Origin: an uncultured delta proteobacterium
GTDB taxonomy: Bacteria > Myxococcota_A > Polyangia > Polyangiales > Polyangiaceae
Length of the DNA: 41,072 nucleotides
Assembly: GCA_903906315.1 (NCBI GenBank)
Contig: CAIVJW010000268.1
Location: 1-41,072, forward strand
Reading direction: 5' to 3'
Of this stretch, positions 28,603-38,475 are shown piece after piece. The notes under the pieces are model-generated. The model was not told where the DNA came from. It ran no database searches and was given only the letters and a program-made list of their open reading frames with translations. Position 1 is the first letter of the stretch, and each line of letters begins with the position of its first letter. The position numbers and the translations under genes are program-made.

Positions 28603-30009
28603 ATGCCCGATCCCGCCCGCATCCTGGTCGTCGACGACAGCGCCACCATCCTCAAGGTGGTCAGCGCGATCCTGTCGCGCCACGGCTTCGATCCGACCAC
28701 CGCGCGCGACGGCGTCGTGGGCATCGAGCTCGTGAGGAGCGAGCCGAGGTTCGACCTCGTGCTGCTCGACTTCGTGATGCCGCGCATGAACGGCTACCAG
28801 TTCTGTCGCGAGCTGCGCTCGAGCCCCGAGCACCGGCACCTGCCCGTCGTGCTGATGAGCGCGAAGGGCGACAAGATCCGGGGCCAGTTCGTGCAGCAGA
28901 CGGGCGCGGTCGACGCCATCACGAAGCCGTTCGACGCGCGCGCGCTCGTGGCCGTCGTCCAGGGCGCGCTCGCGAAGGCCACCGAGGGGCGCGCGCGGCC
29001 GATCCCCGAGGGCGGCGCGATGCCCGACGAGGAGGCCGTCGGACTGATGCTCTCGATGCGCTCGTCGGAGCTCGCGTCCGCGCCGAGCAACCGGGCGAGG
29101 GTCGCGATCCAGGTGGCCCAGCAGGTCGCCTCCGCGGTGGTGCCGGCGATCACGATGCTGCCGAGCGCGGAGCGCGGCAGCGAGGCCGCCCTGCTCGCCG
29201 CGGTGGCGCGCGCGGTGACGCCCGAGGTGCTGCTCGCGCTCGGCGAGACGCTGCGCGAGATCGACGAGGCCAGCGACGCGGACGGCGCCAAGATCGTCAT
29301 GTCCGGCGACATCGCGGCCATCCCTCTCGCCGAGATCCTGCAGGTCTTGCAGATGCAGCGGCAGACGGGGGTGCTGCGCGTGACGACGCCGCGCGCGGGC
29401 ATGACGATCTGGATCCGCCTGGGGCTCGTCGATCTCGTGCAGTCGCACAACGTGCGCGACGAGTCGCGCCTCGGTCGGTACTTCGTGGAGCGCGGCCTCG
29501 CGACCCGCGAGCAGATCGACGCGACCCAGCGGGCGCAGCCGGCCAGCGGCAGGCTGCTCGGCGAGGCGCTGCTGCGCGCCGGCCTCGTGATGCGGGCCGA
29601 TGTCGACCTGGCGCTGAAGCGTCAGTCGAGCGAGCTCGTCTACGAGATGCTCCGCTGGCCCACGGGCCGGTTCACCTTCACGCTCGAGCCCTTCCGTCCC
29701 GAGGTGGAGAGCGCGCAGCTCGGCCTCGGCATCTCGGCGCTGGTGCTCGAGGGCTTCCGGCGCGTCGACGAGTGGCGGCTGATGGAGGGGGTCATCGACT
29801 TCGACCAGGTCGTGGTCGTCGACTCGATGGCGCTCGGGTCCGTGGGCGCGGACCGGCTCACGCGCACCGAGCGGCTCGTGCTCGACGCGGTCGACGGCAC
29901 GCGCACGGTGAGCGAGGTCGTCGAGGGCAGCCTGGTCAGCTCGTTCGACGCGCTCAAGGTCATCTACCAGTTTCTCCAGTCACGGGTCCTGCGCACGCGG
30001 GCGGGCTGA
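28603..30009 (+). CDS. Response regulator with REC and DUF4388 (PATAN-like) domains
   Basis: A 468-residue protein. The REC domain (1-125) has the acidic pair D11/D12, phosphoacceptor D56 (LVLLDFVMP), S86 and K108 (ITKPFD), so it should accept phosphate. After a helical linker (about 130-225) comes a DUF4388 domain (about 228-400), starting MSGDIAAIPLAEILQVLQMQ and QTGVLRVTTPRAGMTIWIRL, followed by a winged-helix-like C-terminus (TRTERLVLDAVDGTRTVSEV). DUF4388/PATAN domains mediate protein contacts in PatA-like regulators and gliding or polarity pathways. The stop is 2 bases from the CheW-like start; as the first gene with CheA downstream, it is the likely output regulator. Confidence 0.92.
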   Translation: MPDPARILVVDDSATILKVVSAILSRHGFDPTTARDGVVGIELVRSEPRFDLVLLDFVMPRMNGYQFCRELRSSPEHRHLPVVLMSAKGDKIRGQFVQQTGAVDAITKPFDARALVAVVQGALAKATEGRARPIPEGGAMPDEEAVGLMLSMRSSELASAPSNRARVAIQVAQQVASAVVPAITMLPSAERGSEAALLAAVARAVTPEVLLALGETLREIDEASDADGAKIVMSGDIAAIPLAEILQVLQMQRQTGVLRVTTPRAGMTIWIRLGLVDLVQSHNVRDESRLGRYFVERGLATREQIDATQRAQPASGRLLGEALLRAGLVMRADVDLALKRQSSELVYEMLRWPTGRFTFTLEPFRPEVESAQLGLGISALVLEGFRRVDEWRLMEGVIDFDQVVVVDSMALGSVGADRLTRTERLVLDAVDGTRTVSEVVEGSLVSSFDALKVIYQFLQSRVLRTRAG

Positions 30010-30011
30010 TC

Positions 30012-30488
30012 GTGGCGCTGCGCGGCGGCCTGCTCTATCGGACGACGGGCCGCGTCGGCGAAGGCGACGACGCGCTGCGCTTCGTGCCCGACGACGTGGT
30101 GGTTCGCGTGACCATGCTCGTCGCGCTGACGCCGGTCGCCGGGATGCGCGGGCCCGCGGCGGGGATCGCGCTCGCGGACGGGGAGGTCGTGACGGTGCTG
30201 CGGCTCGGCGAGGGGCACGCGGAGCCGCCGTGCGACGAGGACGGCTGGCCGACGCCGGGGGCCGATCAGGCGGTGCTCTGCGATCTGGGAGGCGAGCGCG
30301 TGGCGCTCACGGGAGGGACGGTGGTGGCGACAGGCTGGTTCGAGGCGGCGGAAGCGGGCGACGACGGCGTGACGTTCCGCGGGCGGCGGGCGGCGACGCT
30401 CGACGTGCGCGGGCTGTACTCGCGCGCGGAGGCGGCGATCTGGGCCGCGCGCGCCACGGCCTCGCGCCGCGGCGGGGAGCTCGCGTGA
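30012..30488 (+). CDS. CheW-like coupling protein
   Basis: A 158-residue protein from GTG 30012, two bases after the upstream stop. The CheW fold is divergent: VVVRVTMLVALTPVAGMRG, then PAAGIALADGEVVTVLRLG aligns with the CheW core GIxxxRGxxxPVxDL. The late segments VLCDLGGERVALTGGTVVA and RRAATLDVRGLYSRAEAA match the C-terminal half. It would link the MCP-like protein to CheA. The position between a response regulator and MCP/CheA genes, with a 4-base overlap to the MCP-like gene, supports the call more strongly than sequence alone. Confidence 0.78.
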   Translation: MALRGGLLYRTTGRVGEGDDALRFVPDDVVVRVTMLVALTPVAGMRGPAAGIALADGEVVTVLRLGEGHAEPPCDEDGWPTPGADQAVLCDLGGERVALTGGTVVATGWFEAAEAGDDGVTFRGRRAATLDVRGLYSRAEAAIWAARATASRRGGELA

Positions 30489-31294
30489 GCGCACCGCGGC
30501 GCGGGCGCCTGCTCGACCTGCTGCGGCGCGCGAGCGGCGGCGGCGACGATCCGGACAGGCCGGCGCGCGCGACGCTCGACGACGCGGGCCTGTGGAGCGC
30601 GCACGAGCTGGCGACGCGGTCGCTCGACGAGTCGGGGGCGCTCGCCGAGCGCGTCGCGGCGGCGGTGGCGCGGCAGCGCGGGACGGTGGACGCGGCCGGC
30701 GAGCGCGCGAACCTCGTCGCGGCGCGGGCCGAGGGCATCCAGGCCTCGAGCGCGCGCGTCAGCGAGACGTTCGAGCGGCTCGGCGTCGTGGCGCTGAACG
30801 CAGGCCTCGAGGGCGCGCGCGTCGCGGAGCCCGCGGGCCGCGCGCTCATGCTCGTTTCCGACGAGATCCGCGCAAACGTGGCGCGCGGGGCGGAGGCCGC
30901 GCGCGAGCTGTCCGCGGTCGCGCGCGAGGTGGCCGACGAGTCCGTCGAGCTGCGGCGCCAGATCGAGCGATCGCGCGGCGACGTCGGCGAGGTCGGCGAG
31001 GAGGCGGCAAAGCTGCGCGCGTCGGCGCAGCAGGCGGCGCGCGCGCTCGAAGACCTCGGCCAGCGGCTGCGCAAGGCGACGGGCGTCGATCCGGAGCTCG
31101 CGCGCGCGGTCGCGCAGGCGGCCGAGCACGCGCGCGGGCTGATGGGCGCGCTCTCGACGCTCGCGACCGCGCCGCACGCCCGCACGGTCGTCGACGCGCT
31201 GCGGCCGCTGACCGGGCCGCTGTCGAAGCTGCTCGAGGAGCTCGGCTCGACCGACGGCACGCCGACGCGGCGCGATCGCGGCGAGTCGGGCTGA
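30485..31294 (+). CDS. Soluble MCP-like signalling protein without sensory domain
   Basis: A 269-residue, almost entirely helical protein from GTG 30485 (GTGA overlap with the CheW-like gene). Residues about 97-130 read RLGVVALNAGLEGARVAEPA then GRALMLVSDEIRA, which aligns with the hairpin tip of chemoreceptors (LLALNAAIEAARAGE...GFAVVADEVR). Flanking helices form a coiled coil over about 35-250. There is no membrane segment, no PAS, HAMP or ligand domain and no obvious methylation pentapeptide. With no CheR/CheB nearby, adaptation by methylation is doubtful. It must receive input from another protein or work as a cytoplasmic scaffold for CheA. Confidence 0.85.
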   Translation: MSAPRRGRLLDLLRRASGGGDDPDRPARATLDDAGLWSAHELATRSLDESGALAERVAAAVARQRGTVDAAGERANLVAARAEGIQASSARVSETFERLGVVALNAGLEGARVAEPAGRALMLVSDEIRANVARGAEAARELSAVAREVADESVELRRQIERSRGDVGEVGEEAAKLRASAQQAARALEDLGQRLRKATGVDPELARAVAQAAEHARGLMGALSTLATAPHARTVVDALRPLTGPLSKLLEELGSTDGTPTRRDRGESG

Positions 31295-31306
31295 TCGCGG
31301 GGCGTC

Positions 31307-33337
31307 ATGGACGGGGAGGTCGCGGCGCTGCTCCTCATCGAGCTCGATCGGCACCTCCGCGCGCTCGAGCCCGGCCGCGATCCCGAAGACCAGCGCAGGG
31401 CCGCGCACGCGATCCGCGGATCGACGGGCATGGCCGGCCTCACCGCGCTCTCGGAGGCGCTCGGCCGGTTCGAGCGGCGCCTCGGCGCCGGCGACGACAC
31501 GGCGGCGGCCGAGGCGCGCGAGCTCGTGATCGCCGCGCGCGCCGCGCTCGCCGCCGGCGAGGAGTTCGAGCTGCCCGCGTGGCCGACGCCGCCGCCGGGC
31601 CTCGTCGCGCCGCGCCTCGAGGCGTCGACCTCGCAGCTCTACGCGGCCGAGATGCACGATCGCCTGGCGCACCTCGACGCCGTCCTCGCGTCGACGGGCG
31701 GGGATCGCGAGGGCGCCGCCGAGGCCCTGCGGCACGTGCACACGATGAAGGGCGCGGCGCTCGCGCTCGGCGACGAGGCGACGGCGTGGTTCTGCCACGG
31801 CCTCGAGGAGCGCCTCCGCCACGCCGACCGGGGCCCCGAGCAGGCCCGCGACGCGATCGAGGAGCTCGCCCGATCGCGCGGCGTCCTCGCGGAGCTACTC
31901 GTAGCGCCCGGCGAAGCGCTCGACGCGCTGCGACGCAAGGCCGCGCCGCCGCCCTCCTCGCCCGCCTCGCCGGGGGCGCCGGCCGCCGCGCCGCCCCCCC
32001 GCCGGGCGCCCCTGGACCCCGCCGACGCGACGGGGCCGCGCGCTCACGACGACGCCTCGCTGCGCGTCCCGACGGCGACGCTCGACCGCCTGTTCGAGCG
32101 CGTGCGGCAGATGAGCGAGTCGCGCACGCACGTCACGGAGGGGGCCTCCGAGGTGCAGCACGAGGCCGCGCAGGCGCGGACGCTGCGCCGAACGCTCCTC
32201 GAGGCGCTGCGGCTCATCGGGCCGCCGCGGCCGTGGGGGGCGCCGGTGGTCGCGCTCGCCGCGATCGAGCGGAGCGCGCGCGAGCTCGGGCGGCTCGGCG
32301 ACCGGCTCGAGGGCCACGGGACCGCGCTCAAGGACGCGGCCGAGCGCGTGCGGTCCGAGGCCGCGGCCGCCGACGGCGAGCTCGCGCAGGTCCGCACGAC
32401 GACGGCGGCGTGGCTCTTCGATCGGATCGCGGGCGCGCTGGCCGCGCAGGCGCGCCGCGAGGGGCGCGAGGTGCGCATCGCGTGCCTCGGCGGCGAGACG
32501 CCGATCGAGCGGCGCGTCGCCGAGGCGCTGCTCGACCCGGTGCTGCAGCTCGCCCACAACGCGGTCGCGCACGGCATCGAGCCCGCCGCCGAGCGCGCGG
32601 CCCGCGGCAAGACCCGCGTGGGCACGGTGCGGCTGCGCGCCGACCCGCGCGGAGGCGGCCTGCGCCTGCACGTCGAGGACGACGGCGCCGGCGTCGATCT
32701 GGCCGACCTCCGCAGCCGAGCGGTCGCGCGCGGCGCGATCACGCCCGAGGCCGCGCGCGGCGCCGACGACGAGACGCTGCTCGGCCTGCTCTTCGCGCCC
32801 GGTTTCACCACGCGCGACAGCGCGGATCTGCTGTCCGGGCGCGGCGTCGGCCTCGACCTCGCGCTGGCCGCCGTGCGCCGCCTCGGTGGCACCATTCGCC
32901 TCGCGAGCCGACCCGGGCGCGGCCTCACCGCCACGCTCGACGTGCCCCTCGAGGGCGGCCTCACGAAGGTCCTCTGGGTCACGGCCGCGCGGAGCCTGCT
33001 CGCGCTGCCCGTGCTGCACATCGCGCGCGTGCACCTGCGCGCGGACCGGACCGACGAGGTCGTCGAGCTCGGCGCGCTCCTCGGCGCGGCGCCGTGGGAC
33101 CCGCCCGCGCCGACCGCGGTCGCCATCGAGCTCGACCTCCGCGACGACGCCGCGGGCGGCCCGCAGGCGCTGCTCGGGGTCGAGGCGGTCGGCGCCGTCG
33201 AGGAGGTCACGCTCCGCGGCGTGTCCTCGCTCGTGATGGCGGCCGGCCCCTACGTCGCGGCGATCGTGCGCGGGGACGCACTGCGCCTGTGCCTGGACGC
33301 GGCGGCGCTCGGAAAGGCGCTGCGTCCCGGCGCCTGA
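31307..33337 (+). CDS. cheA: CheA-type histidine kinase with two HPt domains
   Basis: A 676-residue protein. HPt1 covers residues 1-85 with AAHAIRGSTG (H34). HPt2 covers about 108-205 with HVHTMKGAA (H145), the usual CheA phosphorylation motif. A Pro/Ala linker precedes a dimerisation-like helical region (about 255-360). The kinase domain has an N-box (LLDPVLQLAHNAVAHGIEP, near 407), G1 VEDDGAGVD, F-box LFAPGFTT and G2 GRGVGLDLAL (near 510). The C-terminal CheW-like domain (about 545-676) binds the coupling protein. There is no P2 domain of the usual kind and no attached receiver. It is the last gene of a four-gene operon. Confidence 0.92.
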   Translation: MDGEVAALLLIELDRHLRALEPGRDPEDQRRAAHAIRGSTGMAGLTALSEALGRFERRLGAGDDTAAAEARELVIAARAALAAGEEFELPAWPTPPPGLVAPRLEASTSQLYAAEMHDRLAHLDAVLASTGGDREGAAEALRHVHTMKGAALALGDEATAWFCHGLEERLRHADRGPEQARDAIEELARSRGVLAELLVAPGEALDALRRKAAPPPSSPASPGAPAAAPPPRRAPLDPADATGPRAHDDASLRVPTATLDRLFERVRQMSESRTHVTEGASEVQHEAAQARTLRRTLLEALRLIGPPRPWGAPVVALAAIERSARELGRLGDRLEGHGTALKDAAERVRSEAAAADGELAQVRTTTAAWLFDRIAGALAAQARREGREVRIACLGGETPIERRVAEALLDPVLQLAHNAVAHGIEPAAERAARGKTRVGTVRLRADPRGGGLRLHVEDDGAGVDLADLRSRAVARGAITPEAARGADDETLLGLLFAPGFTTRDSADLLSGRGVGLDLALAAVRRLGGTIRLASRPGRGLTATLDVPLEGGLTKVLWVTAARSLLALPVLHIARVHLRADRTDEVVELGALLGAAPWDPPAPTAVAIELDLRDDAAGGPQALLGVEAVGAVEEVTLRGVSSLVMAAGPYVAAIVRGDALRLCLDAAALGKALRPGA

Positions 33338-33792: not shown

Positions 33793-34386
33793 TCACTCCC
33801 GCGGCGCCGCGGCCGCGAACGCCCGCTCGACCGCGAGGCGCTCGTCGCGCGCGAACGGAGCCTTCGCGACGATGCCGACCGTGAGCTGCAGGGCGTCCTC
33901 GCCCTCGCCGACCACGACGCGCAACCCGCTCAGCCAGCCGGTGGCGAGCTCGACGGCGAGCGCGCGCGAGGTGCCATCGGGCGTGTCGACGGCCATCTGC
34001 GCGGCGTGCTGGAGCGCGACCATCAGGCGCGCACCGACGCCCTGGACCGCGTCCGGCGTCATCCGGCCGCGGTTCGCGACGACGAGGCCGTACGCGTCCA
34101 TGACGAACGCGGCCTCGGCGTCGAACGCGACGAGGCACCACTCGAGGAGCTGCTCCCAGCAGAGCGACCCCTGATCGATCGAGACGATCGGCGGGTCGGG
34201 GAGCCGCCGGACCGGGGCGGGCGCGTCGACCGTCGGCGCCGCGCGGTGCGCCGGGAAGCGCACGTAAGCCAGGGGAGCGGGCCCGACCGGCGCCGGCTTC
34301 GCGGCCCGACCGTCGACGACGAGCCGGCGAGACAGCTCGCGGGCCAGGGTGAGATCAGACGAGCTGCCGCTCCGGACGTCCGACAT
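33793..34386 (-). CDS. Roadblock/LC7-like protein
   Basis: A 197-residue protein from ATG 34386, preceded by GGAAGGGAG. Residues 1-75 are Pro/Ala-rich and unstructured. The C-terminal domain (about 85-197) reads WEQLLEWCLVAFDAEAAFVM, DAYGLVVANRGRMTPDAVQ and GARLMVALQHAAQMAVDT. This looks like a divergent roadblock/LC7 fold (VxxDxxGLVVAxxG), the fold of MglB and other small-GTPase regulators. It overlaps the end of the parA-like gene by 32 bases and is the last gene of the minus-strand operon. An upstream TTG at 34407 is a less likely start. Confidence 0.72.
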   Translation of the reverse strand: MSDVRSGSSSDLTLARELSRRLVVDGRAAKPAPVGPAPLAYVRFPAHRAAPTVDAPAPVRRLPDPPIVSIDQGSLCWEQLLEWCLVAFDAEAAFVMDAYGLVVANRGRMTPDAVQGVGARLMVALQHAAQMAVDTPDGTSRALAVELATGWLSGLRVVVGEGEDALQLTVGIVAKAPFARDERLAVERAFAAAAPRE

Positions 34387-35170
34387 CTTCGCGCTCCCTT
34401 CCGCCAAGCGACGTGAGCAGATCCAGGATCTCCCCCGCGAGGTGCTCGAATCGACGCGCCTCTTGCGAGACGGCGCCGCCCAGGTAGCCGATCGGCAGCC
34501 CCTTGCTGCTCGCCTCGGCGAAGACGTCGGCGCGCGGGATGACCGCCTCGAGGACGCCGGCGAAATCCGTCCACACGTCGATGAGCGACTGGAGCGACGG
34601 GTCCTTCTGCTTCTCGACCATCGTCGGCAGGATGCCGAGCAGGCGCAGCCGCGGGTTCTCCTCCTCGGCGACGCGGGTCATCACGCGGAGGATCTGCGAC
34701 AGCGTCCGGATCGCGAGCGGCTCGGCCTGCACCGGCAGCAGCACGAAGTCCGCGACGCGCATCCCGGCGCGCGTCGGCATGCCGAGCCCCGACGGCGTGT
34801 CCATCATCACGAGGTCGAACCCGGTGGCGCACGACGCGATCGCGCCTTCGAGCACGCCCGGCGAGTGCAGCGTCTGCTCGTACTCGCACACGTCGCACGG
34901 GTCGAGCCGACCGCGCGGGAGGATCGAGAGCGCCGGCAGCTTCGTCTGCAGCACCGCCTCCTCGCGCGTCGCGGCCCCCGCGAGCAAGTCCGCGAGGCCG
35001 ACGAGATCGGCGTCGCCCTTTGCGAGCGAGTGCCCGATTCCCCCCTGCGGATCGAGATCCACGAGAAGGGTGCGCTTGCCGCGCTCGGCGAGCGCGAGCG
35101 CGAGGTTGAGGCAGACCGTCGTCTTGCCGACGCCGCCCTTTTGACTGGCCACCACGATCTTCGTCGCCAT
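34355..35170 (-). CDS. ParA-family ATPase
   Basis: A 271-residue deviant-Walker ATPase: KGGVGKTT (11-18), switch DLDPQGG (38-44) and VMMDTPSGLG (Walker B). ParA/MinD proteins dimerise with ATP and position cargo, such as plasmids, chemotaxis arrays or polar machinery. No parB and no origin-like repeats are nearby, so chromosome or plasmid partitioning is unlikely. The neighbours suggest positioning of a signalling complex (inference). A CxxC pair (C92, C95 in LDPCDVCEYEQ) is present, which may bind metal or act as a redox switch. The start is 9 bases after the REC-DUF4388 stop. Confidence 0.9.
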   Translation of the reverse strand: MATKIVVASQKGGVGKTTVCLNLALALAERGKRTLLVDLDPQGGIGHSLAKGDADLVGLADLLAGAATREEAVLQTKLPALSILPRGRLDPCDVCEYEQTLHSPGVLEGAIASCATGFDLVMMDTPSGLGMPTRAGMRVADFVLLPVQAEPLAIRTLSQILRVMTRVAEEENPRLRLLGILPTMVEKQKDPSLQSLIDVWTDFAGVLEAVIPRADVFAEASSKGLPIGYLGGAVSQEARRFEHLAGEILDLLTSLGGREREDVGRPERQLV

Positions 35171-35179
35171 GTAGGTCCC

Positions 35180-36157
35180 TCAGGCTCCCGGGCCCTCGCC
35201 GCCCTCGGACGAGCCACCCGGAGCCACGTGGCCCAGCTCGCCGAGGCGCTTCAGATTCGCCTTCACGCGGGGATCGTCCGGCCGGAGCGACTGGGCGACC
35301 CGGAACGCCTGCACGGCGGCGGGGTAATCCTTCGTGAGCATGGCCTCGAGCGCGTGCTCCCACGCGAGCTCGAAGCGGGCGTCGTTCTCGGCCTGCGCCT
35401 CCTCCTCCGGCGTCGCCTTCGGCGGCCGGGGCGGATCGGTCGGCGGGCGAGGCCACGCGCTCTCGACCTTCGGCGGCCGCGTCGAGGCGAGCAGCTCCTC
35501 GTCGAAGATGCGCGCCGACTCGAGCAGCACGGCCTCCCACGGCCCCTCGACGTCCCGCACCCCGGGCGCGCCCTTGAGCGTCGTGCAGTGGACCTCGACG
35601 TCCTGCCGGAACACGAGCCGCCGCAGCGCGGCCGGCCCGACGCCCTGGTCGTCCTTCGCCGACCAGAGCTGGCCGTCCGCAATGACGATCTCGCCGTGCA
35701 GGTCGGCGCGGTCGAGGTGGATCACGACCGAGTGGCGGCCGGTGCAGGCGAGCTGGAGGTAGTCGGCCGCGGAGAACGGCGCGCGGCGCGGCTCCGGCGG
35801 CGCGCCGAGCCGCGCGCGCACCATCGCGCGGAGGTCGTCGAGGCCGACGGGCTTCTCGACCACCTCCACGTTGGCGTGCGGCGGGATCTGCGCGCGGTAC
35901 GCCTTGAGGTACGCCGAGACGTAGATGACGGGCGTCGACAGGCCGCGCCGGCCGAGCTCGCCGAGCAGCTCGATGCCCGATCGGCCCGGCAGATCGATGT
36001 CCGAGATGACGAGGTCGGGCCGGTGCGTGTCGAGCAGCACCAGCGCCTCGTCGAGGTCCTTCGCGTCGGACACGTCGACGCCCGGAAGCTTCGCGATGCC
36101 CCGCGCCATGGAGGTGCGGAGCACCGTCTCGTCTTCGATGAGCAGGACGCGCGCCAC
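35180..36157 (-). CDS. Response regulator with REC, DUF4388 and TPR-like tail
   Basis: A 325-residue protein. REC (1-118) has E8/D9, phosphoacceptor D53 (VISDIDLPG), S81 and K102 (EKPVG). The DUF4388 domain (about 125-235) contains FSAADYLQLACTGRHSVVIH and GEIVIADGQLWSAKDDQG. After a Pro-rich linker the tail (about 265-310) reads ARFELAWEHALEAMLTKDYP then AAVQAFRVAQSLRPDDPRVK, a TPR pair. It is likely the phosphate acceptor for the PAS kinase encoded at the operon head. It is a second DUF4388 regulator of different layout from the one at 28603. It starts 7 bases after the ODP-type gene stop. Confidence 0.92.
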   Translation of the reverse strand: MARVLLIEDETVLRTSMARGIAKLPGVDVSDAKDLDEALVLLDTHRPDLVISDIDLPGRSGIELLGELGRRGLSTPVIYVSAYLKAYRAQIPPHANVEVVEKPVGLDDLRAMVRARLGAPPEPRRAPFSAADYLQLACTGRHSVVIHLDRADLHGEIVIADGQLWSAKDDQGVGPAALRRLVFRQDVEVHCTTLKGAPGVRDVEGPWEAVLLESARIFDEELLASTRPPKVESAWPRPPTDPPRPPKATPEEEAQAENDARFELAWEHALEAMLTKDYPAAVQAFRVAQSLRPDDPRVKANLKRLGELGHVAPGGSSEGGEGPGA

Positions 36158-36164
36158 GGTGCGC

Positions 36165-36926
36165 TCAGCGGCCGGGGATCTTGTAGACGTCGTCGAGCAG
36201 ATCGACGCCGCAGGCGAGGCCCTCGCACCAATCGATGAAGCGATTGACGTGCTCCTTGCCCCGGAACAACGCGCCGTGCTGCGGCGCTATCATCTCGATG
36301 TCGAGCGTGCGGACCATGGCCGCCCACGCGCGCATCGTGCGGTTCGACGCGATGTAGCGGCGGTGGAAGCCCTCCATGTACTGGAGGTGGTCGTCGAAGT
36401 CGGTCACCTCGCGGTAGTCCATGCCGAGCGAGGCGCCGAGATCCCCGCTGTAGAGGATGCGCGAGACGGGGTCATAGACCTGGAAGTTACCGGGCGAATG
36501 CAGGTAGTGGGCCGGCACGAAGAGCAGCGGCGCGCCCCCGAGGTCGAGCGTCATACCCGCGTCCGGGATGGGCTTCAGGCGGTCCTCGACCAGCCGGTCG
36601 AGGCCGAAATGCGGGATGAACCGCAGCCAGAGCGCGGAGATGTAGGCCTCGACGTCCGTGGTCATCAGCCAGCCGTTGCAGGCGGCGACGATGTCCGGGT
36701 CCTGGTGCGACAGGAAGAGGTACCGGAGCTTGGCCCCGCCCCGGAGCAGACTCAATGTCTCGGACAGAACCTTGTTGTAGACCTTGTGGCCCCCGGGATC
36801 GAGGATCATGGCCGAGTCCCCGTGGATCACGAGGTGCTGATTGGCCTGCACGGCGAGGCCCGTGCCGAACTCCTCGAGGAGGATGTTCTTGTGCGTGCCG
36901 TTGTTGAAGAGAATCGAGGAAGCCAT
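36165..36926 (-). CDS. ODP-type di-iron metallo-beta-lactamase-fold protein
   Basis: A 253-residue protein. Metal ligands of the FprA/ODP class are recognisable: SHQDPD (H74, D76, D78), PAHYLHSPGN (H140 or H143), SGDLGAS (D162) and APQHGAL (H217). Flavodi-iron proteins have HxExD at the first site; the Asp variant HQDPD is typical of stand-alone ODP-like proteins. No flavodoxin domain follows, so NO/O2 reduction by itself is unlikely. ODP proteins have been described as iron/oxygen sensors in spirochete chemotaxis. Placement between a roadblock gene and a response regulator supports a sensor role. GGGAGGGG precedes the ATG. Confidence 0.87.
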   Translation of the reverse strand: MASSILFNNGTHKNILLEEFGTGLAVQANQHLVIHGDSAMILDPGGHKVYNKVLSETLSLLRGGAKLRYLFLSHQDPDIVAACNGWLMTTDVEAYISALWLRFIPHFGLDRLVEDRLKPIPDAGMTLDLGGAPLLFVPAHYLHSPGNFQVYDPVSRILYSGDLGASLGMDYREVTDFDDHLQYMEGFHRRYIASNRTMRAWAAMVRTLDIEMIAPQHGALFRGKEHVNRFIDWCEGLACGVDLLDDVYKIPGR

Positions 36927-36941
36927 CGTTCGTCCCCTCCC

Positions 36942-37307
36942 TCAGAGGATCTTCTTGATTTGCTCGACGGCCCGCGACATGTCGAGGAACACGAGGCCGA
37001 GCTTCGCTTCCTTCGTCGTGAGCACGAGCAACATGGTGCCCTGCGCCGCGGTCACCATGATCGCGTAGCCGCGGTCGCCGCGGATGAGCACCTGGCGTAG
37101 CTCGCCGCGCTCGAGCTCCATGGCGGCGCGGGTGCCCAGGGAGAGCAGCGTGGAGCTCATGCCGGCGACGCGGAGCTCCTCCACGTGCTGCGGGAGCGCG
37201 CTCGCGATCATCAGCCCGTCCTCCGAGATCAAGGCGCTGGCCTCGATGTCGGGCGTGCCGGACTGGAGCGTGCGCAGGATCTTGTTCAGCTCCTCGATGC
37301 GTGCCAT
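36942..37307 (-). CDS. Roadblock/LC7 domain protein (MglB-like)
   Basis: A 121-residue single-domain protein: MARIEELNKILRTLQSGTPD, then ASALISEDGLMIASALP, LLSLGTRAAMELERGELRQV and MVTAAQGTMLLVLTTKEAKL. This is the standard roadblock/LC7 fold, as in MglB and other GTPase-activating partners of small Ras-like proteins. No mglA-like GTPase lies in the window, so it may act on a distant partner or as a dimeric scaffold. AGGAGG 9 bases upstream supports ATG 37307 over the longer frame. The stop lies 15 bases before the ODP-type gene. Confidence 0.92.
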   Translation of the reverse strand: MARIEELNKILRTLQSGTPDIEASALISEDGLMIASALPQHVEELRVAGMSSTLLSLGTRAAMELERGELRQVLIRGDRGYAIMVTAAQGTMLLVLTTKEAKLGLVFLDMSRAVEQIKKIL

Positions 37308-37362
37308 TCGGAAGGACCTCCTCGTGCGGCGCGCGGCGCGCGCCAGTTTCACCGGGCCCGGC

Positions 37363-38475
37363 CTACGCGACCGGGACCCGGAGCGTGACCGTCGTGCCGA
37401 CGCCGACGATGGACTGGATGTCGAGCGAGCCGCCAGCGCCCTCGGCGGCGCGCCGCGCGAGCGCCAGGCCGATGCCGCTGCCGCTCCGCTTCGTGGTGAA
37501 GAAGAGCTCGGTGCAGCGGTCGAAGACCTCCGCCGTCATGCCCTCGCCGGTGTCGGCGACCGTCAGCTCGAACGCCTTGCCGCCGCCCACGAGGCGCGCG
37601 TGAACGATGACCGTGCCCCCTCCGCGGCACGAGTGCTGGGAGTTGACGAGCAGGTTGAAGAGCACGGCGCGTACCACCGCCGGATCGAGCGGCAAGAGCG
37701 GCAGGTCCGGGACGTCGCAGCGAGCGACGACGTCGGCCGCCTGCATCCGCGGCGCGAGGATGCGGAAAACCTCGCGGCACGCGAGATCGACGGCGCCGTA
37801 CCGGTCGCTCTTGAGATCCCGGCCCACGGCGCCGACGCCCTCGAGGGCGAGCGCCATGCGGCGCACCTCGCCGAGCACGGCGTAGAGCTGGTCGCGCACC
37901 GTGCCGTCCGAGAGCTCCTCGAGCAGCACCTCGACCGCCGTGGTCACGGCGGCCAGCGGGTTCTTGACCTCGTGAAGCACGCTCGGGAGCACGTCGCCGA
38001 CGGCCGCCAGTTGCAGAAGCCGGTCGCGCTCCTCGCGGACCTTCTCCCAGGTGGAGATGTTCTGGAACACGACCGCGTAGAGGAGAGGCTCGCTGTCGTC
38101 CGCGCCGACGACGAGGCCGACGCCATAGCCGATCGTGATGGTCCGACCGCTCGGCAGCGTGACGACCTGCGTGTAGCGAAGCTCGCCGCCCTCGGGCGGG
38201 ACGGGGTTCTCCTGGTGCCAGCGCATGGGGCCGAGGACGTCCTCGACGCGCGCGCCGCACAGCGCTTCCGCGCCGCGCTCGAGGATGCGCGCGGCGCGGC
38301 GGTTCGCCATCAGGATGATGCCCTGTGCGTCGACGACGAGCGTGGCGGTCGGCAGCGAGGCGATGACGCGCAGCCCCGAGGAGACGGGGAGCGGCGGAGA
38401 GCCGGGCCTCGCGCCGGCGAGCGTCGGATCGTTCTGAATGGACACGGACGTCCTCGTCGTTCCGCGGGGTGCCAC
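37363..38475 (-). CDS. PAS-domain sensor histidine kinase
   Basis: A 370-residue soluble kinase. The PAS domain (about 35-145) reads VIASLPTATLVVDAQGIILM and ANRRAARILE. The HisKA helix has VLHEVKNPLAAVTTAVEVL with H168. The HATPase domain (about 260-370) has N-box LFNLLVNSQHSCRGGGTV, G1 VADTGEGM, F-box ELFFTTKRSGSG and G2 GIGLALARR. There are no membrane helices, so it senses a cytoplasmic signal or a protein partner. The start is GTG 38475, supported by a TACCCT box 9 bases upstream; GTG 38445 is an alternative. It heads the six-gene operon running to 33793. Confidence 0.92.
   Translation of the reverse strand: MAPRGTTRTSVSIQNDPTLAGARPGSPPLPVSSGLRVIASLPTATLVVDAQGIILMANRRAARILERGAEALCGARVEDVLGPMRWHQENPVPPEGGELRYTQVVTLPSGRTITIGYGVGLVVGADDSEPLLYAVVFQNISTWEKVREERDRLLQLAAVGDVLPSVLHEVKNPLAAVTTAVEVLLEELSDGTVRDQLYAVLGEVRRMALALEGVGAVGRDLKSDRYGAVDLACREVFRILAPRMQAADVVARCDVPDLPLLPLDPAVVRAVLFNLLVNSQHSCRGGGTVIVHARLVGGGKAFELTVADTGEGMTAEVFDRCTELFFTTKRSGSGIGLALARRAAEGAGGSLDIQSIVGVGTTVTLRVPVA

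Follow-up and report, generated by a model that had tools for sequence, protein, structure and literature searches.

Known roadblock proteins include the GTPase regulator MglB and the lysosomal scaffold Ragulator; the placement of DNA, chemoreceptors and carboxysomes depends on ParA-like ATPases. Both kinds of protein are encoded together with an oxygen-binding diiron protein (ODP) by an operon of six genes, situated on the minus strand at positions 33793-38475 of contig CAIVJW010000268.1 in the 8.8-Mb draft genome of an uncultured member of the Polyangiaceae. The whole stretch of 41,072 nucleotides that was analysed is called the window. In this operon and its relatives, the ODP and the roadblock protein ROBL1 were found to form a recurrent gene pair, and in some operons the place of the ODP is taken by a protoglobin.

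Several described systems share parts of this gene set. In Treponema denticola the ODP TDE2498 is described as an oxygen sensor coupled to the methyl-accepting chemotaxis protein (MCP) TDE2496, which modulates CheA (PMC7666581). A stand-alone diiron ODP tied to a signalling partner is common to both cases, but the partner there is an MCP, while here it is a set of roadblock proteins, kinase, regulator and ParA. An MCP-like gene of the window (30485-31294) lies about 2.5 kb from the operon on the opposite strand; in the loci compared, its relatives were not among the best matches beside an ODP. The core of the Streptomyces conservon consists of the histidine kinase CvnA, the roadblock protein CvnB, CvnC and the GTPase CvnD (PMC13343842). 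A histidine kinase adjoins a roadblock gene in both systems; ODP, REC-DUF4388 and ParA stand here in place of CvnC and the GTPase. Neither a Ras/Arf-type GTPase nor what we take to be a CvnC-type domain was among the Pfam matches of the other four genes. With the MglA/MglB system the operon shares the roadblock fold, detected by Pfam for ROBL1 and by a structural model for ROBL2 (Z 14), and MglB structures are among the top fold matches of that model. However, no cognate MglA was found in the operon by Pfam, and the 13 genomes examined that carry the minimal proteobacterial form gave no match to MglA.

ParABS-like cargo positioning has in common with this operon a ParA ATPase whose partner starts with a conserved, predicted helix, followed by a folded domain that is probably a dimer. 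Here a roadblock protein takes the part of the partner, and no such pairing was found among the papers listed by the literature search. Protoglobin-based oxygen sensing has been described in Myxococcota (PMC11841059). NmpU and AfGcHk are oxygen sensors of the protoglobin or globin-coupled kind; in some of the operons studied here a protoglobin occupies the ODP place, but as a single-domain protein adjoining ROBL1, without fusion to a kinase. The locus of the Group 1 Rup small GTPases includes an OmpA-type inner-membrane protein (PMC4316618), while the OmpA-containing variant found here carries ODP, ROBL1 and a membrane roadblock protein, and the GTPase model gave a score of 100 bits or more in none of 80 ODP loci. 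The main text of that paper contains none of the words lactamase, globin, ParA and oxygen. That ODP genes share operons with various signalling genes has been noted in general terms (PMC7319448). The literature search yielded no paper on roadblock together with protoglobin or with DUF4388, and titles and abstract beginnings among the matches listed held no description of roadblock proteins in combination with an ODP or a protoglobin; roadblock neighbours may be listed in the original ODP paper, which lay outside this coverage. The gene set is akin to known roadblock-based signalling and may be an instance of something more general. An oxygen sensor tied to roadblock adaptors and ParA would link metabolism to spatial organisation, and such a system would explain the role of many ODP and stand-alone roadblock genes in Myxococcota, Pseudomonadota and Planctomycetota.

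The first-pass annotation of the window had read the operon as six genes in the order given below, separated by gaps of 7-55 bases with one overlap. Both order and spacing were confirmed, with intergenic distances of 55, 15, 7 and 9 bases and 32 bases shared by the last pair. Five of the six proteins are backed by Pfam. ROBL1 also gave a profile match to the PDB entry 7f8m (E 1e-33).

37363-38445 (ATG start; to 38475 with a GTG start), minus strand: PASHK, PAS histidine kinase (Pfam)
36942-37307 (alternative start at 37352), minus strand: ROBL1, stand-alone roadblock/LC7 protein (Robl_LC7, 2e-16)
36165-36926, minus strand: ODP, oxygen-binding diiron protein (PF19583, 4e-69)
35180-36157, minus strand: REC-DUF4388 regulator (Response_reg, 2e-18; DUF4388, 1e-6)
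34355-35170, minus strand: ParA/MinD-family ATPase (AAA_31, 1.5e-31)
33793-34386 (alternative TTG start at 34407), minus strand: ROBL2, second roadblock protein, overlapping the 3' end of ParA

Conservation of the ODP-ROBL1 pair and exchange of the presumed sensor

The ODP scored 232.7 bits with the curated model PF19583 (cut-off 27.2), and its closest solved structures are the oxygen-binding diiron proteins 6qrq (E 6e-85) and 6qnm (E 7e-75). Its fold is that of a metallo-beta-lactamase without flavodoxin. Residues H74, D76, D78, H143, D162, Q216 and H217 were invariant among ten homologues and are likely metal ligands, the assignment being our own. The pattern specific for ODPs was also present by our assignment, with I79 following HQDPD and the pair Q216-H217 both invariant in the same set. 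In the Thermotoga ODP the third His of motif 2 is lost and a Gln is found at motif 5 (PMC7785958).

Among 386 candidate stretches from species-representative genomes, 361 relatives of the ODP were identified, and the 80 loci most similar to the ODP of the window were analysed by six-frame hidden Markov model searches, counting genes that shared the strand of the ODP and lay no more than 6 kb from it. ROBL1 was present in 77 of these loci, at a distance of 100 bases or less from the ODP in 61 of the 77. PASHK was found in 33, REC-DUF4388 in 37, ParA in 16 and ROBL2 in 17 loci, while an OmpA-type protein was present in 40, a membrane roadblock protein (TMROBL) in 41 and a protoglobin in 6. These loci had been picked by their similarity to the window ODP, so two even samples of 140 Myxococcota and 398 Pseudomonadota genomes were added. 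In the Myxococcota sample (ODP at E <= 1e-40, ROBL1 at E <= 1e-10, pairing by hand), 22 ODP places and 26 ROBL1 places formed 14 adjacent pairs on the same strand within 430 bases, two of which (G000, G041) had contributed to the search profiles. The pairing of ODP with ROBL1, seen at 14 of the 22 ODP places, exceeds chance. A ROBL1 relative was present in 24 of the Pseudomonadota genomes; the 20 loci analysed contained an ODP in 14 cases, a protoglobin in 4, a small Ras/Arf-type GTPase in 10 and OmpA or TMROBL in 3. The gene set is conserved well beyond this strain, the reverse of the outcome that the first-pass annotation had named as counting against its proposal.

The strongest evidence that the place after ROBL1 may serve gas or redox sensing is the exchange of the sensor itself. 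In the Myxococcota operons L132, L135 and L136, composed of ROBL1, protoglobin, REC-DUF4388, OmpA and TMROBL, a protoglobin of about 180 residues sits in the ODP slot; L132 additionally has PASHK ahead of ROBL1, and L141 is a bare ROBL1-protoglobin pair. The protoglobins directly after ROBL1 matched PF11563 with E-values of 7e-31, 3e-30, 5e-28 and 3e-24 (L132, L135, L136 and L141), and H93, which we take to be the proximal His, was invariant in three sequences. Of the 12 unpaired ROBL1 places in the Myxococcota sample, four directly adjoin a protoglobin and one has it 2 kb away. The top five protoglobin matches in that sample (240-333 bits; the next had 108) were all located within 2.1 kb of ROBL1. 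Three of them had been used to build the profile, while G004 and G105 had not; in G105 two genes of opposite strand lie between ROBL1 and the protoglobin. ODP and protoglobin occur together in 6 of the 80 ODP loci and 4 of the 20 Pseudomonadota loci. Because two unrelated oxygen-binding folds occupy the same place, the slot would sense a gas or redox cue, and the exchange predicts that both proteins act on the same roadblock partner. The oxygen or redox control proposed by the first-pass annotation is supported both by the kept ligand residues of the ODP and by the protoglobin found in its slot in three operons and one bare pair.

Some counts weigh against a strict pairing of sensor and roadblock. 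Eight of the 22 Myxococcota ODP places have no neighbouring ROBL1, both ODP and protoglobin are missing near 7 of the 26 ROBL1 places, and the ODP is missing from 6 of the 20 Pseudomonadota ROBL1 loci. In addition, a separate ODP without ROBL1 is present in G145, which contains L132, and in G119, which contains L141, two of the four genomes in which ROBL1 is paired with protoglobin.

Further variants of both partners were observed. A second ODP of the host genome is fused to a GGDEF diguanylate cyclase (L048:8317-10134, contig C188), in relatives the ODP is fused to eukaryote-like serine/threonine kinases (L049:8409-10586; L050:8894-10900), and at L140:1852-3747 an ODP without ROBL1 adjoins a truncated globin and a YbjN-family gene. 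In the Pseudomonadota loci L165-L176, ODP and ROBL1 were present in all 12, protoglobin in 4 and a small Ras/Arf-type GTPase in 7, and several hold extra roadblock-like genes. At L148:126-7621 the genes after the ROBL1-ODP pair encode an HD/PAS/histidine kinase protein of 1027 residues, a regulator, and proteins resembling ParA and roadblock. One Chloroflexota locus, L131, encodes a fusion of DUF4388 with a roadblock of the ROBL1 type (Pfam, 2e-23 for DUF4388 and 1e-14 for Robl_LC7). ROBL1 relatives were also located near proteins with a CPHDTA motif close to their start (L160:4829-5578, L162:3796-4530, L154:2937-3644), which by eye resemble PhnD-type binding proteins and are perhaps another sensor partner of ROBL1 relatives. 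The proteins of L134:7739-8215 (158 residues) and L156:4011-4505 (164 residues), from two Myxococcota genomes, are alike by eye and encoded near roadblock genes; the former matched no Pfam family above the cut-off.

ParA, ROBL2 and the membrane-bound alternatives

The ParA protein carries the deviant Walker A motif SQKGGVGKTT and matched the NCBIfam model ParA_partition at 1.2e-25, below the model cut-off. Its neighbour ROBL2 fell below the Pfam cut-off for Robl_LC7 (0.013), and its fold was predicted with AlphaFold2 and structure search. In the model (mean predicted local distance difference test score, pLDDT, 81) a roadblock-type domain is preceded by an N-terminal helix (residues 9-23) and a linker of low confidence, and the best solved matches include a Streptomyces roadblock protein, MglB and Ragulator subunits. 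The best Z by VIA was 14.4 over 114 residues with a root-mean-square deviation of 2.2, and Foldseek gave an E-value of 2e-4. By these predictions ROBL2 is a roadblock fold. The joint occurrence of ParA and ROBL2 next to REC-DUF4388 extends over several families of Myxococcota and to Planctomycetota, and the two are fused in two Planctomycetota loci, L063 and L075. The ROBL2 part of the fusions was detected by our own profile (138 and 176 bits), Pfam detecting the ParA part alone. The Walker A lysine is lost in L075 (GGVGGTT); the AlphaFold2 model of the L063 fusion contains both domains, with pLDDT 85 and a predicted template modelling score of 0.67, which is not a measure of the interface.

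A motif of the N-terminal region of ROBL2, D[LR]x5[LFIVA][SAV]x[RQST]L, was present in 13 of the 15 unfused copies next to ParA and in one of two fused copies, as against none of 54 TMROBL open reading frames. Among the 37 proteins of the window only ROBL2 itself has it, and it arose in 4 of 2000 shuffles of the first 60 residues of ROBL2. The contrast in the occurrence of this motif is suggestive only. ParB binds and activates ParA through an N-terminal peptide (PMC12462528), and by analogy a ParB-like role of ROBL2 as partner of ParA is a reasonable idea.

In many loci without ParA a different set of genes is found. On one strand, 16 of the 80 ODP loci contain ParA, 42 contain OmpA and/or TMROBL and none contains both (Fisher test, 8e-7). 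The same holds among the 37 loci with REC-DUF4388, with ParA in 14 and OmpA/TMROBL in 18 (2e-6). OmpA-type proteins from two loci matched PF00691, and TMROBL starts with a hydrophobic segment bearing a GYLFG-like motif. The distribution suggests that ParA and OmpA/TMROBL could be interchangeable anchors. A localisation role, as the first-pass annotation had envisaged, gains support from this alternation and from the ParA-ROBL2 fusions.

Against these interpretations it must be considered that 22 of the 80 loci have neither anchor, and that without the strand rule the counts become 15 for ParA, 43 for OmpA/TMROBL and one for both, the single overlap being L102, where the OmpA match lies on the other strand. 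The p-value for exclusivity overstates independence because the anchor classes cluster on the ODP tree. Repeated exchange of modules was rejected as a demonstrated event: the tree has eight changes among the ParA, OmpA and GTPase labels, which favours multiple swaps, while the starred branches force only one. Only one of seven TMROBL proteins exceeded the Pfam cut-off for Robl_LC7 (L062, 28.1 bits with a cut-off of 23), L111 staying just under it (22.3 bits) and L060 reaching 16.1, while L072, L087, L095 and L120 gave no Robl_LC7 match in Pfam. Comparison of ROBL2 with the ROBL1 profile by hhalign gave a probability of just 6%, and the comparisons among the ROBL1, ROBL2 and TMROBL profiles were weak throughout (6%, 42% and 1%). 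The ROBL2 motif was also found in one of four copies without ParA within 3 kb; it was derived from the same sequences, and the ROBL2 profile comes mostly from ParA-linked copies.

Proposed mechanism and competing explanations

The gene set, its conservation, the sensor exchange, the alternation of anchors, the predicted fold of ROBL2 and the ParA-ROBL2 fusions are computed results, from which we infer the following steps and protein contacts on the basis of sequence. The diiron site of the ODP would bind O2 or lose iron and then change its shape, and protoglobin would do the equivalent job through its haem where it replaces the ODP. The sensor would act on its gene partner ROBL1, a putative roadblock adaptor, which would receive a second input when the PAS kinase phosphorylates REC-DUF4388. 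ROBL2 may offer N-terminal helices in the manner of the peptides of ParB-type partners, bind and activate ParA, and so tether the complex to the nucleoid or spread it over the nucleoid. In other lineages the OmpA-type inner-membrane protein and the membrane-anchored roadblock could serve as tether. The output would be the localisation or activity of a protein in trans, because no operon protein has a convincing DNA-binding or cyclase domain; among the six proteins, Pfam gave for such domains only a winged-helix match below the cut-off in REC-DUF4388 (E 0.041). That the operon encodes an oxygen- or redox-gas-responsive roadblock signalling platform, which receives a phospho-input and is anchored through ParA, is the interpretation we favour, and we give it an even chance of being right.

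A wider version can be put forward tentatively. ROBL1 with interchangeable diiron and haem sensors, and with interchangeable anchors consisting either of ParA with a roadblock-based ParB-like activator or of a membrane roadblock and an OmpA protein that binds peptidoglycan, would form a general positioning machine in which oxygen sets the site of the complex. ROBL2 would then represent a new class of ParA partner, with a roadblock dimer in the role of ParB.

An unlikely alternative is a control module for polarity or type IV pili, in which MglA or PilB is the target of ROBL1/ROBL2 and the PATAN-type regulator, oxygen governs reversals or the activity of pili and ParA helps to place the pole complex. 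In the host genome an MglB-like roadblock gene immediately precedes an MglA-like GTPase gene (L051), names that we presume and that are backed by up to 95% identity of MglA-search matches to the L051 GTPase. It also has four PilT-family matches above the cut-off. PATAN proteins are reported near MglB homologues (PMC4316618), and PATAN regulators figure in work on cyanobacterial pili (PMC7690835). However, an MglA-like GTPase was found in 9 of 22 carrier genomes, every one outside the Pseudomonadota, and in none of 13 Pseudomonadota carriers. A dependence of ROBL1 on MglA was therefore rejected for the minimal form. The first-pass annotation had spoken of GTPase-regulator folds: the roadblock folds stand, but the label is too specific for the minimal form, and in other Pseudomonadota a small GTPase of another kind accompanies ROBL1 and ODP. 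Such a GTPase lies beside ROBL1 in 10 of the 20 Pseudomonadota loci, 7 of these with an ODP, and a link of ROBL1 to GTPases in general is conceivable.

The first-pass annotation had named a signalling or motility complex as the cargo; a motility complex as the general cargo was not supported. PilT-family matches above the NCBIfam cut-off are missing in 7 of 23 carrier genomes and the CheA dimerisation domain in 2 of 23, some of these genomes being drafts in which genes may have been missed; the Methylocystis genome G195 has neither. Motility was accordingly rejected as a universal output. A dedicated motility role as a general rule is unlikely from these gene contents, while such a role is possible in the host genome, which has both the CheA dimerisation domain and PilT.

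The preferred signalling platform also has to be weighed against an ordinary two-component pair, in which the PAS kinase signals to REC-DUF4388 with the ODP as sensor and ParA and ROBL2 are bystanders. PASHK matched HATPase_c (4e-17), PAS (1.2e-5) and, just below the cut-off, HisKA (9e-6), and is probably soluble, as none of its segments is strongly hydrophobic (the highest mean over 19 residues is 1.67). After its two domains, REC-DUF4388 continues with a linker rich in proline and ends in a part that is TPR-like by eye, without a Pfam match to a TPR family. PASHK is present in 32 of the 37 ODP loci with REC-DUF4388, as this explanation requires, but many proteobacterial loci consist of ROBL1, ODP, OmpA and TMROBL without PASHK, and the recurrence of ParA and ROBL2 beside REC-DUF4388 and their fusion do not suit bystanders. 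We consider it improbable.

It is quite improbable, too, that the ODP is an enzyme consuming O2 or NO which its neighbours merely regulate or place. The ODP does match flavodiiron NO/O2 reductases distantly (E 2e-5 to 6e-4), but neither a flavodoxin domain nor a rubredoxin was among the Pfam matches of the six proteins, and it is replaced in some operons by protoglobin, the haem-sensor family of the NmpU homologue (PMC11841059). Finally, a remnant of DNA partition is a very remote explanation for ParA-ROBL2. In its favour, the ATPase is of the ParA family with an intact Walker A motif; against it, the operon proteins gave no ParB family match in Pfam, the partner has a predicted roadblock fold and ParA recurs with ODP and ROBL1.

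Neighbouring chemosensory-like genes

On the plus strand at 28603-33337 the window contains a chemosensory-like operon of a REC-DUF4388 protein, CheW-like and MCP-like proteins (both below cut-off) and a CheA-like kinase. The kinase has Hpt and ATPase domains, and the dimerisation domain PF02895 gave no match. These genes were rejected as part of the system, as they lie on the opposite strand beyond a tRNA-Ser. In the relatives compared, no gene adjoining the ODP had their CheA-like, CheW-like or MCP-like protein as its best match. The receiver-DUF4388 protein was the best match beside the ODP in a few loci, among several generic receiver matches.

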